This document shows positions 35,866 to 56,858 of a stretch of 64,000 nucleotides of DNA, piece after piece. The notes beneath the pieces are model-generated. The model had not been told where the DNA came from. It was given only the letters and a program-made list of their open reading frames with translations, and ran no database searches. The stretch comes from Actinomycetes bacterium. GTDB lineage: Bacteria > Actinomycetota > Acidimicrobiia > Acidimicrobiales > Ilumatobacteraceae. The stretch covers positions 1 to 64,000 of the forward strand of contig JAIXWJ010000074.1 of assembly GCA_027491335.1 (NCBI GenBank), given 5' to 3'. A program made the translations under genes and the position numbers. Numbering within the stretch: the stretch's first letter is position 1; every line of letters begins with the position of its first letter.

Positions 35866-36522
35866 TCAGAGTCGGCGCAGAACCGTGACGACCTTGCCGA
35901 AGATACGGACGTCGTCGGCGTCGAACTCCATGGGGGAGAGACGCTCGTTGGCCGGCTTCAACACGATGGTGTTGCCGCGACGACTGAAGGTCTTGACGGT
36001 GGCTTCGTCGCCGGGGATGCCGGCCACGACGATGTCTCCGTTGTCGGCCGACGCTTGTTGCCGCGCGACCACGTAGTCGCCGTCGAGGATGCCGGCATCG
36101 ATCATGGATTCGCCGCGCACGCGCAACATGAACAACTCACCGTCGCCGGTGAAGTCCGCGGGAAGCGGAAGCAGATCCTCGACGTTCTGTTGAGCCAACA
36201 CGTCGGTGCCAGCAGCAACATCGCCGACCAACGGAACGTGGTGAACGCGGGCGCGTTCGATCTTGGCGCCGCTGTTGCGGTCCCAACAGACCTTGATGGC
36301 ACGGGGCAAGTTGGGGTCGCGCTCGAGGAAGCCCAACTTCTGCAGCGTGCTGAGGTGGTTGTGCACGGTGGAGGGGGAGGTGAGGCCCACGGCCTCGCCG
36401 ATCTCGCGCACCGACGGCGGAAAGCCTCGGTTGGCCATGCTGGATTCGATGCATTCCAAGATGCCGCGCTGACGGGCGGTGAGGGCGGACGAGGAGGAGG
36501 AGCTCTTGCGGGCGTCGGTCAT
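35866..36522 (-). CDS. lexA: SOS repressor LexA
   Basis: A 218-residue repressor/autoprotease. The N-terminal winged helix-turn-helix spans about residues 12-75 (SVREIGEAVGLTSPSTVHNHL). The cleavage bond is Ala104-Gly105 (DVAAGT); the catalytic dyad is Ser139 (GESM) and Lys177 (ATVKTF). ATG 36522 is chosen over the upstream in-frame ATG at 36531 because TACGAT ends 7 bases before it and TTGACT lies 17 bases further up. LexA boxes overlap this promoter, indicating autoregulation. Confidence 0.95.
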   Translation of the reverse strand: MTDARKSSSSSSALTARQRGILECIESSMANRGFPPSVREIGEAVGLTSPSTVHNHLSTLQKLGFLERDPNLPRAIKVCWDRNSGAKIERARVHHVPLVGDVAAGTDVLAQQNVEDLLPLPADFTGDGELFMLRVRGESMIDAGILDGDYVVARQQASADNGDIVVAGIPGDEATVKTFSRRGNTIVLKPANERLSPMEFDADDVRIFGKVVTVLRRL

Positions 36523-36529
36523 GGCGTGC

Positions 36530-36558
36530 ATCGTACGGGTGTTCGCCCTCGGAGTCAA
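36530..36558 (-). promoter_or_regulatory. lexA core promoter
   Basis: On the minus strand, TTGACT (36558-36553) and TACGAT (36535-36530) are separated by 17 bases. The predicted transcription start falls about at the lexA ATG (36522), so lexA mRNA is probably leaderless. A LexA box (36557-36568) abuts the -35 element and a degenerate one (GTAC-GGGT-GTTC, 36533-36544) overlaps the -10. Confidence 0.65.
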
Positions 36559-36568
36559 ACACCTGTTC
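36557..36568. promoter_or_regulatory. LexA (SOS) box 1
   Basis: AAAC-ACCT-GTTC, one mismatch from the actinobacterial and Gram-positive core GAAC-N4-GTTC. It overlaps the -35 element of lexA by two bases. Confidence 0.7.
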
Positions 36569-36617
36569 GTACAGTGCCTGCTCAGAAGACCATTTTGGGC
36601 CTCGGAGCAGGGAAGGG

Positions 36618-36645
36618 TTGACACCGAACAAGTGTTCTCCATAGT
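36618..36645 (+). promoter_or_regulatory. SOS-controlled promoter of the LysM gene
   Basis: TTGACA (36618-36623), a 16-base spacer and CATAGT (36640-36645) read toward the gene at 36826. A perfect LexA box fills the spacer, and two more follow downstream, so repression by LexA should be tight. The implied 5' leader is roughly 170 bases. Confidence 0.65.
36626..36637. promoter_or_regulatory. LexA (SOS) box 2
   Basis: GAAC-AAGT-GTTC, an exact match to the GAAC-N4-GTTC core, placed between the -35 and -10 of the rightward promoter. Confidence 0.8.
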
Positions 36646-36657
36646 GTGCGATCAAGC

Positions 36658-36669
36658 GAACAGGTGTTC
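36658..36669. promoter_or_regulatory. LexA (SOS) box 3
   Basis: GAAC-AGGT-GTTC, an exact core match, just downstream of the predicted start of the rightward transcript. Confidence 0.8.
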
Positions 36670-36688
36670 TGAACTACACCGGTGTTGC

Positions 36689-36700
36689 GAACACCTGTTT
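36689..36700. promoter_or_regulatory. LexA (SOS) box 4
   Basis: GAAC-ACCT-GTTT, one mismatch from the core, with flanking C and G that extend the dyad. It lies in the leader of the LysM gene. Confidence 0.65.
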
Positions 36701-36762
36701 GAAACCGTGCCACACCCCCTTGGCACGGTGAGCACAGGTCGAGAACACGACCGCCGCACGAA

Positions 36763-36788
36763 CCGAAGCAATCAACCGAAGCAATCAA
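36763..36788 (+). repeat. 13-bp tandem repeat in the LysM gene leader
   Basis: CCGAAGCAATCAA occurs twice in tandem (36763-36775, 36776-36788), followed by degenerate partial copies up to about 36808, close before the ribosome binding site GAAAGGA. The rest of the 303-base lexA/LysM intergenic region holds the promoters and LexA boxes listed separately. Confidence 0.6.
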
Positions 36789-36825
36789 CCGAACAAACCG
36801 AAGCACCCGACCCGAAAGGAATCCC

Positions 36826-37314
36826 ATGGCCCTGGCCCTTGACCCCCGCTACGTGATCGAGATCCACTCCCATGACGTCACCCCCGCGTCGGGTCGTGGC
36901 CGTTCGGGTTCTCGTGTGAACCCGCGTGTGAACCCGCGCGTGAACCCGCGTGTGAACCCGCGTGTGAACCATGACGTGTACTTGCGCCGTCGCCTGATGG
37001 TGGCGCTCATCGGACTCAGTGTCGCGGCCGCCGCCTGCCTCGGCGTCCGTGCCCTGGCGAGCCGTGGGGATGCGACTGCCTCCATCCCCACGGTGACGCC
37101 TCTCTCGGTCGGCAGCCCCACCGTTTCCATGATCGATCCGTCGGTCTACGGACAGGGCGCGGGTTTCTACGTGGTGCGGCCCGGCGACACGCTGTGGTCC
37201 ATCGCATCTTCGCTCACCGACGGAAACATCGGCTCGTTCGTCGACGAACTCGTCGATATCAACGGTGGAGCGTCCATCGCCGTCGGACAGCGTTTGGTGA
37301 TTCCCGAAAGCTGA
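36826..37314 (+). CDS. SOS-regulated LysM membrane protein (YneA/ChiZ-like)
   Basis: A 162-residue protein. A basic cytoplasmic N-terminus contains a four- to five-fold RVNP repeat (about residues 30-48). A single membrane helix follows (LMVALIGLSVAAAACLGVRAL, about 57-77), then an exported linker and a C-terminal LysM domain (YVVRPGDTLWSIASSL ... GQRLVIPES). One TM helix plus LysM, divergent from lexA and preceded by LexA boxes, is the layout of B. subtilis YneA and mycobacterial Rv2719c/ChiZ, which halt septation during the SOS response. Function here is inferred from that pattern. ATG 36826 follows GAAAGGA. Confidence 0.82.
   Translation: MALALDPRYVIEIHSHDVTPASGRGRSGSRVNPRVNPRVNPRVNPRVNHDVYLRRRLMVALIGLSVAAAACLGVRALASRGDATASIPTVTPLSVGSPTVSMIDPSVYGQGAGFYVVRPGDTLWSIASSLTDGNIGSFVDELVDINGGASIAVGQRLVIPES
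36913..36970 (+). repeat. 12-bp in-frame tandem repeat (RVNP)
   Basis: The unit CGTGTGAACCCG occurs four times (the third copy with one change) plus a 10-base partial copy. It encodes Arg-Val-Asn-Pro repeats in the cytoplasmic part of the LysM protein. Because the unit is a multiple of three, copy-number changes keep the frame. Confidence 0.85.
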
Positions 37315-37390: not shown

Positions 37391-37849
37391 ATGCGTTGCG
37401 TGATGTGTCGCCACGAGGACACCAAGGTGGTCGATTCGCGCATGGCCGAAGAAGGGGCGGCGATTCGTCGTCGTCGCGAATGCCCGGCCTGCAACCATCG
37501 CTTCACCACCTTCGAGCGGGTCGACGAAGTGCCGCTCATGGTGGCCAAGACCAACGGTGGCCGCGAGCCGTTCGATCGGGTGAAGGTGACCTCCGGAGTG
37601 CGGGCGGCCAGCAAAGGTCGCCCCATCGACGAGGATGCCATCAACGCGTTGGCGGATTCGGTGGAAGAAGAACTGCGCCAGATCGGGGGCGACATCCCGT
37701 CCACCCGCATCGGTTTGGCGGTCCTCGATCGACTGCGGGCCCTCGACGAGGTGGCCTACCTGCGTTTCGCCAGCGTGTACAAGAACTTCGACGCCGCCGA
37801 GGACTTCCAGCGCGAAGCGGCGTTGCTGGACAAGTCGCCCGTGGTCTGA
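37391..37849 (+). CDS. nrdR: Transcriptional repressor NrdR
   Basis: A 152-residue regulator of ribonucleotide reductase genes. The zinc ribbon uses Cys3, Cys6, Cys31 and Cys34 (MRCVMC, ECPACNHR), followed by an ATP-cone domain that senses ATP/dATP (PFDRVKVTSGVRAASKGRP). ATG 37391 begins exactly at the zinc ribbon and has TACTCT 7 bases upstream; a longer in-frame start is rejected. Likely targets are the NrdR-like boxes before nrdJ, about 2.7 kb downstream. Confidence 0.96.
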   Translation: MRCVMCRHEDTKVVDSRMAEEGAAIRRRRECPACNHRFTTFERVDEVPLMVAKTNGGREPFDRVKVTSGVRAASKGRPIDEDAINALADSVEEELRQIGGDIPSTRIGLAVLDRLRALDEVAYLRFASVYKNFDAAEDFQREAALLDKSPVV

Positions 37850-37877: not shown

Positions 37878-40172
37878 GTGACCGACACCACCGTTTCTCG
37901 CTCCCAAGGTTCTCGTACCGCCTATCGCACCTGTCCGCTCTGCGAGGCCGGATGTGGCCTAGAGATCACGGTGAACATCACCGATCGTGGTGAATCGGTG
38001 GGTCGCATCCGGGGCGACATGGACGACGTCTTCTCGCACGGCTTCATCTGTCCCAAGGGGTCGGCCCTCAAGCAGTTGCACGAAGATCCGGATCGCCTGC
38101 GCAAACCTCTCGTGAAGCGCAACGGTGTGCACGTGGAGGTGGAGTGGGACGAGGCATGGGCCGAGGTGGCCGGACGTTTGCAGGATCTCATCGAACGTCA
38201 TGGTCGCGAGGCCGTGGCGGTGTACTTGGGTAATCCGAGTGCGCACTCGTTGTCGGCGATGCTCTACAACCGCTCGATGCTGATCGGCCTGGGCACGCAC
38301 AACCGCTTCAGCGCGTCCACCGTGGATCAATTGCCCAAGCAAGTGGCCAGCGGATACATGTTCGGCACCGGGGCCAGCGTCACGGTGCCCGATCTCGATC
38401 GCACCGACTACCTGCTGATGTTGGGAGCGAATCCCTACGCGTCCAACGGCAGCCTGTGCACCGCTCCCGACTTCCCGGGCCGTTTGCAGGCCATTCGCGA
38501 ACGCGGCGGCAAGGTGGTCGTCGTCGACCCGCGGCGCACCAAGACCGCCGAGGAGTCCGATGAATGGGTGGCGATCCGCCCCGGATCCGATGCTCTGTTT
38601 CTGATGTCGATCGTGAACGTGTTGTTCGCCGACGACCTCGTGCGTGTGCCCGAGCGTCTGTCTTCGATGGTCGATGGCATCGACGAGATGAGGGTCGCCA
38701 GTGCGGACTTCGCTCCCGAGGTGGTGTCGGCCGCGACCGGAATCGAGGCCGACGTGATTCGCCGCATCGCCCACGAGTTGGCCGACGCACCATCGGCGGC
38801 CGTGTACGGACGCATCGGAACCACCACCACCGAGTTCGGCACCACCGCCAGTTGGCTCATCGACGTGGTGAACACACTGACGGGAAATCTCGATCGTGCG
38901 GGCGGCGTGATGTTCACGAAGCCCGCGCTCGGAAGTCCCACCACCAAGGGAACCAGCGGCAAGGGTTCGGGTTTTCGTGTGGGCCGTGGAGGTGGACGAA
39001 CCAAGGTGTCGGGTTATCCCGAGGTGATGGGGGAGTATCCGGCGGCGGCTTTGGCCGAAGAGATCACCCACGCCGGCAACGACTCCATTCGCGCTCTGAT
39101 CACCGTGGCGGGCAACCCGGTGCTGTCGACGCCACATTCGAACCAGTTGGACGCGGCTCTGGCGAAGTTGGAGTTGATGATCAGCGTCGACATTTACTTG
39201 AACGAGACCACGCGTCACGCCGACGTGATTCTTCCTCCGCCGTCGCAACTGCAACGCGATCACTACGACGTGTTCTTGTTGCAGTACGCGGTGCGCAACG
39301 TGGCCAACTACAGCGAGGCGGTGCTCGCGCGCGATGAGGGTCAGCCCGACGAATGGGAGATTCTGGCCAAGCTCGGATTGATCGCGGCGGGACTTGGTCC
39401 CGACACCGATGCGGCGGTGGCCGACGATCAAGGAATCGAAAGTCTCATTCGCGCCGCGGTGTCCGACGCATCGTCTCCGGTTCACGGCCGTGATGCCGCC
39501 GAGATTCGTGCGGCGCTCGATGCGTCCGGTCGGCGTGGACCCGCGCGGATGTTGGATTTGATGTTGCAAACCGGCCCGTACGGCGCGGCCTTCGGTGCGA
39601 ATCCCGGTGGTGCGAGTCTCGATCTGTTGCTCGCGAATCCGCACGGCGTCGACTTCGGTGCACTCGGCGAACGTTTGCCGGACGCGTTGCGCACGCGAAC
39701 GGGCAAGGTCGAGTTGGCGCCCGAGCCATTGATCGCCGATGTGGCGCGATTGCGTGTTGCGATCGATGAATTGAACGCGCGTTCGATGGTGTTGGTGGGA
39801 CGTCGTCACCTGAAGTCGAACAACTCGTGGATGCACAACATCGGCGTGCTGATGAAGGGGTCGATGAGTTGTTCGTTGCAGATGCACCCGATCGACGCGG
39901 ATCGACTCGGTTTACAGAATGATGCACTTGCAACGATCTCGTCACGCGTCGGATCGGTGGTGGCGCCCGTCGAGATCACGACGGACATTCGTCCCGGCGT
40001 CGTGAGCCTGCCCCACGGATGGGGACATTCGTCGCCGGGCACCAAGATGGGCGTGGCCGCGGCCCGCGCGGGGGTGAATTCGAACATCCTCAGCGATGAT
40101 CGGGCCCTGGACCCCTTGTCGGGCACCTCGGTCCTGAACGGCATCCCCGTCGACATCGCCCCTGCTCAGTGA
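37878..40172 (+). CDS. Molybdopterin oxidoreductase (FdhA/DMSO-reductase superfamily)
   Basis: A 764-residue cytoplasmic protein without a Tat signal. The N-terminal [4Fe-4S] site is Cys19, Cys22, Cys26 and Cys58 (CPLCEAGC, GFICPKG). Molybdopterin-binding segments include VVVVDPRRTKTAEESD and the C-terminal SVVAPVEITTDIRPGVVSLPHGWGH. The metal-ligand loop reads FSASTVDQLPKQ with no Cys or Sec, so it is not a canonical formate dehydrogenase or nitrate reductase. Substrate unknown. TAAAGT lies 6 bases before GTG 37878. No small subunit or Mo-cofactor gene is adjacent. Confidence 0.82.
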   Translation: MTDTTVSRSQGSRTAYRTCPLCEAGCGLEITVNITDRGESVGRIRGDMDDVFSHGFICPKGSALKQLHEDPDRLRKPLVKRNGVHVEVEWDEAWAEVAGRLQDLIERHGREAVAVYLGNPSAHSLSAMLYNRSMLIGLGTHNRFSASTVDQLPKQVASGYMFGTGASVTVPDLDRTDYLLMLGANPYASNGSLCTAPDFPGRLQAIRERGGKVVVVDPRRTKTAEESDEWVAIRPGSDALFLMSIVNVLFADDLVRVPERLSSMVDGIDEMRVASADFAPEVVSAATGIEADVIRRIAHELADAPSAAVYGRIGTTTTEFGTTASWLIDVVNTLTGNLDRAGGVMFTKPALGSPTTKGTSGKGSGFRVGRGGGRTKVSGYPEVMGEYPAAALAEEITHAGNDSIRALITVAGNPVLSTPHSNQLDAALAKLELMISVDIYLNETTRHADVILPPPSQLQRDHYDVFLLQYAVRNVANYSEAVLARDEGQPDEWEILAKLGLIAAGLGPDTDAAVADDQGIESLIRAAVSDASSPVHGRDAAEIRAALDASGRRGPARMLDLMLQTGPYGAAFGANPGGASLDLLLANPHGVDFGALGERLPDALRTRTGKVELAPEPLIADVARLRVAIDELNARSMVLVGRRHLKSNNSWMHNIGVLMKGSMSCSLQMHPIDADRLGLQNDALATISSRVGSVVAPVEITTDIRPGVVSLPHGWGHSSPGTKMGVAAARAGVNSNILSDDRALDPLSGTSVLNGIPVDIAPAQ

Positions 40173-40505: not shown

Positions 40506-40507
40506 CT

Positions 40508-40522
40508 CACTACAACTTGTGG
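40508..40522 (+). promoter_or_regulatory. Candidate NrdR box 1
   Basis: CACTACAACTTGTGG begins 3 bases after the -10 and covers the predicted start site. It resembles the NrdR-box pattern CAC(A/T)A(T)A-T-(C)TTGTG and is part of a near-palindrome reaching 40524. Confidence 0.5.
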
Positions 40523-40692
40523 TGGAAAGAGCGGTGGGGGACCGTAGACACCACATCTTGTGCTCATAGCAGACCTCCCGGCCCGCTCCGGCGACCCCTC
40601 ATCGGGGGTCATCGGCTCGGGTCGGAACCATCTTTCCGACAGTTTTCGTTACCCAGCCTTCACCGCATCGTTCACAGAATCAGGAGAATCCC
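40523..40692 (+). other. nrdJ 5' leader
   Basis: About 170 GC-rich bases with no gene. It contains the second NrdR-like box (40549-40563), a hairpin with arms GACCCC (40593-40598) and GGGGTC (40605-40610), and the ribosome binding site CAGGAG just before ATG 40693. I see no convincing cobalamin-riboswitch core. Confidence 0.45.
40549..40563 (+). promoter_or_regulatory. Candidate NrdR box 2
   Basis: CACCACATCTTGTGC differs from box 1 at three of 15 positions and lies 41 bases downstream, close to four helical turns, as expected for paired NrdR sites. Confidence 0.5.
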
Positions 40693-43530
40693 ATGTCACT
40701 CGCTCCGGACCGCCTCGCCATTGGCATCCGTCGTCACTTCACCACCCCGGGCGTGCACCCGTACGACCAGGTGGTCTGGGAGAAGCGTGACGCCCGCATC
40801 TCCAACTGGAAGGACGGCTCGGTCGCCTTCGAACAGCTGGGTGTGGAGTTCCCGGTCACCTGGTCGCTGAACGCCACCAACATCGTGGCCCAGAAGTACT
40901 TCCGCGGCACCCCGGGCACCGACGAGCGCGAGTCGTCGTTGCGTCAGGTGATCGACCGTGTGGCCGACACCATCACCACGTGGGGTCGCGAGGGCGGCTA
41001 CTTCGTGGACGAGGCCGAGGCCGACAACTTCCGTGACGAACTGAAGTTCATCCTCGTCACCCAGCGCGCGGCCTTCAACAGCCCGGTGTGGTTCAACATC
41101 GGTGTCAAGGGCGTGCCCCAGCAGGCCAGCGCCTGCTTCATCTTGGCCGTCGAGGACAAGATGGACGCCATCTTGAACTGGTACCGCGAGGAAGGCGTGA
41201 TCTTCAAGGGCGGTTCGGGTTCGGGCATCAACCTGTCCAAGATCCGTTCCAGCGCCGAACTGCTGCAGGGTGGCGGAACCGCCTCGGGTCCGGTGTCGTT
41301 CATGCGCGGCGCCGACGCCTCGGCCGGCACCATCAAGTCGGGCGGCAAGACGCGTCGCGCCGCCAAGATGGTCATCTTGAACGTCGATCACCCGGACATC
41401 GAAGAGTTCATCTGGTGCAAGGCCAAAGAAGAGCGCAAGGCTCGCGTGTTGCGCGACAACGGCTTCGACATGGATCTCGACGGCGCCGATGCGTTCAGCA
41501 TTCAGTACCAGAACGCCAACAACTCGGTGCGCGTCACCGACGACTTCATGCAGGCCGTCAAGGACGACGCCGACTGGTCGTTCCGCGCCGTCACCACCGG
41601 CGAGCCCGTGCGCACCGTGCGCGCGCGCGACTTGTGGCGTCAGATCGCCACCGCTTCGTGGGAATGCGCCGACCCCGGTCTGCAGTTCGACACCACTATC
41701 AACAAGTGGCACACCGCGCACGCGACCGGTCGCATCAACGGCTCGAACCCGTGCTCGGAGTACATGCACATCGACAACTCGGCGTGCAACCTGGCCTCGA
41801 TCAACTTGCTGAAGTACCTCGACGAAGAGGGCAACTTCGACCTCGATGCCTACAAGCACACCATCGAGACCATGTTCACCGCGCAGGAGATCCTGGTGGG
41901 TCGCGCCGATTACCCGACCGAGAAGATCGGCGAGAACAGCCGCAAGTTCCGTCAGCTCGGCTTGGGTTACGCGAACCTCGGTGCGCTGCTGATGGCACTC
42001 GGTCTGCCCTACGACTCGATCGAGGGTCGTGCGTGGGCCGCCGGTCTCACCAGCCTCATGACCGGCCACGCGTACGCCACCAGCGCGCGCACCGCCAGCC
42101 GCATGGGACCCTTCGCCGGCTTCGCCGAGAACGAGCGCCACATGCTCAACGTGTTGCGCATGCACCGTGACGCCAGCTACGAGATCGCCGACGAGAGCAT
42201 CGTTCCGGCGGCTCTGTTGCGCGCCGGCCAGGAGTCCTGGGAGTCGGCCGTGCGCGACGGCGAAGAGTACGGCGTGCGCAACGCGCAGGCCACCGTGCTC
42301 GCGCCCACCGGCACCATCGGTCTCATGATGGACTGCGACACCACCGGCATCGAGCCCGACCTCGGTCTGGTCAAGATGAAGAAGCTCGTCGGTGGCGGCA
42401 ACATGGTCATCGTCAACGAGACCATCCCGCGCGCCTTGCGCAAGGTGGGTTACAACCCGCAGCAGGTGGACGACATCATCGCCTACATCGACACGGAGAA
42501 GTCCATCCTGGGCGCCCCGCACTTGAAGGCCGAGCACGTGGCGATCTTCGCGTGCTCCATGGGTGACAACACCATCCACTACGAGGGTCACGTGCGCATG
42601 ATGGGTGCGGTGCAGCCGTTCATCTCGGGCGCCATCTCCAAGACGGTGAACATGCCCGAAGAGGCCAGCATCGAAGACATCGAGGCCCTGCACATGCTGT
42701 CGTGGGAACTCGGTCTGAAGGCCGTGGCCATCTACCGCGACAACTGCAAGGTGGGCCAGCCCCTCTCGACGGCCAAGAAGGACGACGACAAGGCGGACGC
42801 TCCGGCGGCCACCGCGTCGGCCGTGGTCGAAAAGATCGTCGAGAAGGTCATCACCAAGCCGGTGCGCCAGAAGCTTCCCCGCAGCCGTCGTGGTCGCACG
42901 TTCGAGTTCCGCGTGGCCGACTGCAAGGGCTTCGCCACCATCGGTGAGTACGAAGACGGTCGTCCCGGTGAGGTGTTCCTCACCGTGTCCAAGCAGGGTT
43001 CCACTCTGTCGGGAATCATGGACGCCTTCGCCAAGAGCATCAGCTACGGCCTGCAGTACGGCGTGCCCATGCGGGCCTTCGTCGAGGCCTTCGTGAACAT
43101 GCGCTTCGAGCCCGCCGGCATGACCGACGATCCGGACATCCGTTTCGCCGCCTCCATCATGGACTACCTATTCCGCCGTCTCGCCCTCGAGTACATGACG
43201 TACGAAGAGCGCGAGGAACTGGGCATCTTCTCCATCGACGAGCGCCTGCAGCCCACGCTGCCCGGCGTCGAGGAGTCGGGCATCCAGTCGGTGCAGGGCA
43301 CCGAAGTGGCCGCCGACCCCAAGAGCATCCCCTCGGTGGAAGAGTTGGTCACCCAGATGGAACTGGGCATCGCGCCCACGGCTCCGGTGAGCGACATCTC
43401 GGCCGAGATGAAGCGACCGGGTCAGAAGCACAGCGATGCGCCGATGTGCATGCAGTGTGGTGTGCAGATGAACCGCGCCGGTTCCTGCCACGCCTGCCCG
43501 TCGTGCGGTAGCACCAGCGGCTGCAGCTGA
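40693..43530 (+). CDS. nrdJ: B12-dependent (class II) ribonucleoside reductase
   Basis: A 945-residue adenosylcobalamin-dependent reductase that makes deoxyribonucleotides with or without oxygen. The core has the active-site cysteine region QASACFIL (Cys148), FKGGSGSGINLS, NPCSEY (Cys354), VLAPTGTIG and ISGAISKTVNMP. After a charged linker (about residue 695) comes the C-terminal domain found in actinobacterial NrdJ, ending in a Cys-rich tail (CMQCGVQMNRAGSCHACPSC) that relays electrons. Regulation by NrdR is supported by upstream boxes. Codon use is very strongly biased to C/G endings, suggesting high expression. Confidence 0.97.
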   Translation: MSLAPDRLAIGIRRHFTTPGVHPYDQVVWEKRDARISNWKDGSVAFEQLGVEFPVTWSLNATNIVAQKYFRGTPGTDERESSLRQVIDRVADTITTWGREGGYFVDEAEADNFRDELKFILVTQRAAFNSPVWFNIGVKGVPQQASACFILAVEDKMDAILNWYREEGVIFKGGSGSGINLSKIRSSAELLQGGGTASGPVSFMRGADASAGTIKSGGKTRRAAKMVILNVDHPDIEEFIWCKAKEERKARVLRDNGFDMDLDGADAFSIQYQNANNSVRVTDDFMQAVKDDADWSFRAVTTGEPVRTVRARDLWRQIATASWECADPGLQFDTTINKWHTAHATGRINGSNPCSEYMHIDNSACNLASINLLKYLDEEGNFDLDAYKHTIETMFTAQEILVGRADYPTEKIGENSRKFRQLGLGYANLGALLMALGLPYDSIEGRAWAAGLTSLMTGHAYATSARTASRMGPFAGFAENERHMLNVLRMHRDASYEIADESIVPAALLRAGQESWESAVRDGEEYGVRNAQATVLAPTGTIGLMMDCDTTGIEPDLGLVKMKKLVGGGNMVIVNETIPRALRKVGYNPQQVDDIIAYIDTEKSILGAPHLKAEHVAIFACSMGDNTIHYEGHVRMMGAVQPFISGAISKTVNMPEEASIEDIEALHMLSWELGLKAVAIYRDNCKVGQPLSTAKKDDDKADAPAATASAVVEKIVEKVITKPVRQKLPRSRRGRTFEFRVADCKGFATIGEYEDGRPGEVFLTVSKQGSTLSGIMDAFAKSISYGLQYGVPMRAFVEAFVNMRFEPAGMTDDPDIRFAASIMDYLFRRLALEYMTYEEREELGIFSIDERLQPTLPGVEESGIQSVQGTEVAADPKSIPSVEELVTQMELGIAPTAPVSDISAEMKRPGQKHSDAPMCMQCGVQMNRAGSCHACPSCGSTSGCS

Positions 43531-56492: not shown

Positions 56493-56858
<366 letters not shown>

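Follow-up and report, generated by a model that had tools for sequence, protein, structure and literature searches.

lexA and a divergently oriented gene for a LysM-domain membrane protein very likely form a LexA-repressed SOS checkpoint module, in which the LysM protein would act as a division inhibitor working like ChiZ of M. tuberculosis and YneA of Bacillus subtilis. The two genes stand head-to-head in the window, i.e. the whole 64,000-nucleotide stretch of DNA analysed, and the original prediction that lexA and a one-TM LysM gene diverge across 303 bases (36523-36825) was borne out when the coordinates were re-read. Its acidimicrobial placement also stands, the related named records being Acidimicrobiia/Ilumatobacteraceae; the host is a freshwater-type actinobacterium. 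In a family profile scan the lexA product (218 aa, start ATG at 36522) reaches 232 bits against TIGR00498 (cutoff 111) and displays both LexA domains. The A-G cleavage site (AAG, residues 102-104) is invariant across relatives and S138 and K176 are also kept, so that HTH, cleavage site and Ser/Lys dyad are all present. Coordinates of the features are collected in the table.

Table. Features of the lexA/LysM region of the window
Feature	Position	Strand	Details
lexA, SOS repressor/autoprotease	35866..36522	-	TIGR00498, LexA_DNA_bind, Peptidase_S24
lexA promoter -10	36530..36535	-	TACGAT, 7 nt before ATG; direct reading
LexA box lexA-O1	36533-36544	-	GTACGGGTGTTC forward, GAACACCCGTAC on lexA strand; one mismatch
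lexA promoter -35	36553..36558	-	TTGACT (GTTTGACT), 17 nt from -10
LexA box lexA-O2	36557-36568	-	AAACACCTGTTC forward, GAACAGGTGTTT on lexA strand; one mismatch
LysM promoter -35	36618..36623	+	TTGACA
LexA box lysM-O1	36626-36637	+	GAACAAGTGTTC, exact; inside LysM -35/-10 spacer
LysM promoter -10	36642..36647	+	TAGTGT, spacer 18
LexA box lysM-O2	36658-36669	+	GAACAGGTGTTC, exact; just 3' of expected transcription start
LexA box lysM-O3	36689-36700	+	GAACACCTGTTT, one mismatch
SOS LysM membrane protein, predicted division inhibitor	36826..37314	+	162 aa; Pfam LysM 37 bits; homologues beside lexA in relatives
TM helix, residues about 57-75	36994..37050	+	hydropathy and charge; VYLRRR precedes
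LysM domain, residues 115-160	37168..37305	+	Pfam; LysM structures are best fold matches
nrdR, ribonucleotide reductase regulator	37391..37849	+	TIGR00244, 163.6 bits vs cutoff 124.65

Searching the intergenic region for GAAC-N4-GTTC with 0-1 mismatch gives five LexA boxes, two exact and three with one mismatch; four had been described, with the number of exact boxes correct and one mismatched box missed. Within the 64-kb window there are 54 sites at <=1 mismatch, compared with 36 +/- 6 in shuffles, and the five boxes in 303 bp are the window's densest cluster (Poisson P about 7e-6). Dinucleotide shuffling of the intergenic stretch itself leaves 0.26 sites if one mismatch is tolerated (<=1) and 0.015 if none is. 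As a correction to the original description, the two lexA-proximal boxes are part of the lexA promoter, the other three being part of the LysM promoter. The lexA/LysM switch region is unusually well conserved. lexA-O1 and lexA-O2 keep an identical 24-bp spacing in 21/21 same-genus loci, the second exact box (lysM-O2) is likewise present in 21/21, and the lysM-O3 site is found only in the window's own subclade.

The same motif was followed through the window's own genome (2.52 Mb, 76 contigs) by pattern searches. GAACRNNYGTTC has 18 sites genome-wide versus 2 for the reversed control pattern. Among the matches listed, which include one-mismatch sites, boxes lie just upstream of recA (a pair, one exact and one with a single mismatch), uvrB, imuA'-imuB, dnaE2, a gene for an RNase_T/GIY-YIG exonuclease protein and two HNH endonuclease genes; imuA' has no Pfam match and is named by its place before imuB. 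Because a canonical SOS gene set with the core members recA, uvrB, imuA'-imuB and dnaE2 stands behind the boxes, GAAC-N4-GTTC is very probably the LexA site of this genome. Five further box matches were rejected as targets, since several of them fall within coding sequence and the reversed motif gives 2 chance sites against 18. The boxes right before the two HNH endonuclease genes have perfect half-sites (1501-1512 in both L005 and L047), one of the proteins carrying DUF222, which suggests that HNH proteins are SOS-regulated in this genome. Taken with the motif cluster and its conservation, the regulon strongly supports, at the level of sequence, the LexA control of the module that had been proposed.

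On the lexA strand the promoter reads GAACAGGTGTTTGACT-N17-TACGAT-N7-ATG, and the N17 contains most of box GAACACCCGTAC. Here the mismatches of the boxes build the promoter itself. The single mismatch of lexA-O2 (GTTC to GTTT) creates the -35, the TT end of the box starting the hexamer, and that of lexA-O1 (GTTC to GTAC) creates the -10, the GTAC end giving TAC. Both promoter-forming mismatches are kept in 21/21 same-genus loci, as is TACGAT. Across 101 LysM loci, which are related and do not count as independent events, GAACnnnnGTTTG is found in 84, and TAnnnT follows 16-18 nt past it in 80 of these 84 as against 2% in shuffles. Fusion of a lexA box with the -35 recurs through Actinomycetota and reaches Bacillota. 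Since the -10 ends only 7 nt from the ATG, a leaderless-type lexA transcript is predicted; in M. tuberculosis the lexA transcript is leaderless by experiment (PMC2897130). The GTTT-type lexA box of S. venezuelae (TCGAACGTGTGTTT) is listed as experimentally validated (PMC9380542), and this autoregulatory box shares the GAACnnnnGTTT form with the lexA-proximal box here.

On the other side, TTGACA with an exact LexA box filling the promoter spacer proved real, and the two further boxes 3' of the LysM promoter are present. The -10 given in the original prediction fares less well. CATAGT at spacer 16 occurs in just 3/21 same-genus loci and is probably one register off, because TAnnnT at spacer 17-18 is invariant in 21/21. 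TTGAC followed by a LexA box within 1-5 nt is found in 87/101 LysM loci. A LexA box therefore sits in the LysM gene's own promoter, and with three boxes very tight repression is plausible. That LexA controls lexA only, the LysM-side boxes being passive neighbours of a constitutive gene, is very improbable: a box count alone cannot assign the boxes of a divergent region to one gene, but in most loci of the class an exact box lies between the -35 and -10 of the LysM gene, and the lexA promoter has boxes of its own.

The order lexA, LysM, nrdR is kept in 21/21 same-genus loci carrying lexA (a 22nd is cut before lexA) and also in order-level loci, both sets fetched with a LysM query. A selection by lexA alone was used as well, since the same-genus set came from the LysM query. 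Among the lexA-selected loci with enough flank, which are related and not independent observations, lexA and a TM-LysM gene stand head-to-head in 48/55 from Acidimicrobiia and 22/39 from other Actinomycetota. The conservation of order and boxes in related genomes that the original prediction had proposed as a check is thus seen at class and phylum level, and the YneA/ChiZ-like location of a LysM gene adjoining and divergent from lexA is confirmed. Named records with the pair include Acidimicrobiia, Coriobacteriia and Bacillota such as Brevibacillus and Lysinibacillus. Staphylococcal loci are without LysM, one having an 86-aa SosA-like TM ORF there instead. A large-genome actinomycete locus has no LysM gene beside lexA, in line with the report that none of the known SOS division inhibitors has a clear homologue in Streptomyces (PMC9380542). 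Within the class, one family with small genomes (about 1 Mb, about 90% complete) gives no LexA match; this streamlined lineage may have lost its SOS system. Searching contigs with the LysM protein as query found no relative; the LexA query did find relatives.

The LysM protein consists of an Arg-rich N-terminus, VYLRRR, one TM helix, a linker and LysM, an architecture recovered by Pfam, hydropathy and AlphaFold in agreement with the original description. In the AlphaFold model (mean pLDDT 70.5; about 82-93 over most of LysM, low elsewhere) a TM helix at 45-77 and the LysM fold are both confident, with disorder between them. Fold and sequence searches retrieve LysM domains; PDB matches of the model are mostly such domains (best E 0.02) and add no target information. 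Net charge averages about +4 before the TM and -0.3 after it in 101 homologues, hence the N-terminus is probably inside and the LysM domain outside. Conservation is poor beyond LysM and the RRR-TM stretch. The cytoplasmic N-terminus also holds VNPR units encoded by in-frame tandem copies of a 12-bp sequence (36915-36968), a repeat that the closest relatives lack.

Filing the LysM protein as YneA was rejected: it scores 20.8 bits against the NCBIfam equivalog NF010723, below the curated cutoff of 60, and the Mycobacterium-type protein also falls short at 35.6 bits. A profile of 46 Acidimicrobiia proteins does match a ten-protein phylum profile, a mixed alignment led by the Mycobacterium-type protein (hhalign E 1e-21, 99.4%). 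The match covers RRR, TM and LysM, the part beyond LysM being the short RRR-TM stretch. In the lead Mycobacterium-type locus LexA is nearly identical to the solved LexA 6a2q over the C-terminal domain. Homology to the mycobacterial-type protein beyond LysM, together with the lexA-X-nrdR synteny, places the protein in the ChiZ orthologue group.

ChiZ (Rv2719c) shares the order lexA, TM-LysM, nrdR as well as LexA control. It has 165 aa against 162 here, and both proteins have an Arg-rich disordered N-terminus; in ChiZ the IDR spans 1-64, the TM 65-86 and LysM 113-165 (PMC7355643). Identity is low outside TM and LysM, and the N-terminal segments differ, with MALALDPRY conserved on the side of the protein here. 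The N-terminus and TM of ChiZ suffice for filamentation, with FtsQ and FtsI as partners (PMC7355643), and its LysM domain is reported as dispensable (PMC3989709) with its exact role open (PMC7355643). The mechanism is thus not uniform among the inhibitors, the YneA TM binding FtsW TM7 while its LysM must bind peptidoglycan (PMC13396833). YneA is SOS-induced, lies beside lexA and has a single TM with extracellular LysM (PMC13396833), as is predicted here, although its N-terminus is short. DivS of Corynebacterium glutamicum and SosA of Staphylococcus are likewise encoded beside lexA, with one TM and an SOS-induced division block (PMC3989709, PMC6851548), but unlike the protein here they have no LysM domain.

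Since ChiZ, YneA, DivS and SosA, all beside lexA, inhibit division (PMC3989709, PMC6851548, PMC13396833), the LysM protein probably does so too, judging by its position, architecture and known relatives. An SOS-induced factor that remodels or protects the cell wall without blocking division is an unlikely alternative reading. LysM itself indicates peptidoglycan affinity only, and the initial report on ChiZ described it as hydrolysing the cell wall (PMC3989709); that result, however, was judged a likely false positive by a later study (PMC7355643), Pfam detects no catalytic domain in the protein here (162 aa), and YneA and ChiZ inhibit division from the same position.

nrdR follows the LysM gene after 76 nt and is next to it in most Acidimicrobiia loci. 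Because of the short gap and conserved order co-transcription is likely, making nrdR the probable second gene of a LexA-controlled transcript. In M. tuberculosis the Rv2719c-nrdR-Rv2717c operon is reportedly under LexA (PMC4181829). In the window a molybdopterin oxidoreductase gene (37878-40172) begins 28 bases after nrdR and is kept there in all same-genus loci, so that the damage-induced transcript might extend into it as well. Upstream of nrdJ (40693-43530) lies a pair of NrdR-box-like sites (40507-40522 and 40548-40563) with a distance of 41 bp between them; they are the single best and one of the four next-best matches in the window to ACACTATATATAGTGT, and the nrdR of the module may control nrdJ. 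Elsewhere in the window a bacterial RNase P class A RNA lies at 56495-56852 on the minus strand.

The presence of nrdR in most loci also fits a reading in which nrdR, for dNTP supply, is the selected cargo of a LexA-controlled operon and the LysM gene just a minor passenger, and in five loci lexA faces nrdR without an intervening LysM gene. This reading is nevertheless improbable, as the LysM gene is beside lexA in three loci with no nrdR found nearby and stays there in Bacillota, where no nrdR was found near the lexA/LysM loci examined. In B. subtilis, yneA is not known to be followed by nrdR.

In the checkpoint model, LexA in undamaged cells would sit on its own promoter, at the boxes that merge with its -35 and -10, and on the LysM promoter, at the exact spacer box and the exact and near-exact boxes downstream. 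Upon DNA damage RecA would stimulate LexA self-cleavage and both promoters would open. The LysM protein would then enter the membrane, leaving its Arg-rich N-terminus in the cytoplasm and exposing the peptidoglycan-binding LysM domain on the outer side, and, by analogy with YneA and ChiZ, it would engage the septal wall-synthesis machinery and hold back division until the DNA is repaired. nrdR, probably co-transcribed, would couple the delay to dNTP supply.

Both the lexA-linked synteny and this type of protein have been described in several Gram-positives (PMC6851548, PMC3989709), and to these the Acidimicrobiia case adds a member. For the extent in Acidimicrobiia and the fusion of boxes with promoter hexamers no description was found in the literature searched; parts of the grammar may have been described before. 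With this finding the LexA-linked TM-LysM checkpoint reaches into a largely uncultured, MAG-dominated class, where it is the rule and not the exception, and the lineage gains a predicted SOS regulon. The finding also gives a promoter layout precise to the base level, with lexA boxes that serve as promoter hexamers at the same time. If this layout sets induction timing, it would account for different responses of the repressor gene and the division brake on either side of a common 303-base region. A more speculative possibility, less likely than not, is that the region preserves an ancient, fixed operator grammar common to Actinomycetota and Bacillota, in which the lexA box yields its last base to the -35 (GAACnnnnGTTTG) and so becomes imperfect, and the inhibitor box stays perfect in the spacer with further boxes behind. 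Were this so, lexA would come early and the division block late, the order of induction being built into the DNA, and YneA and ChiZ would descend from one ancestral lexA-linked checkpoint.
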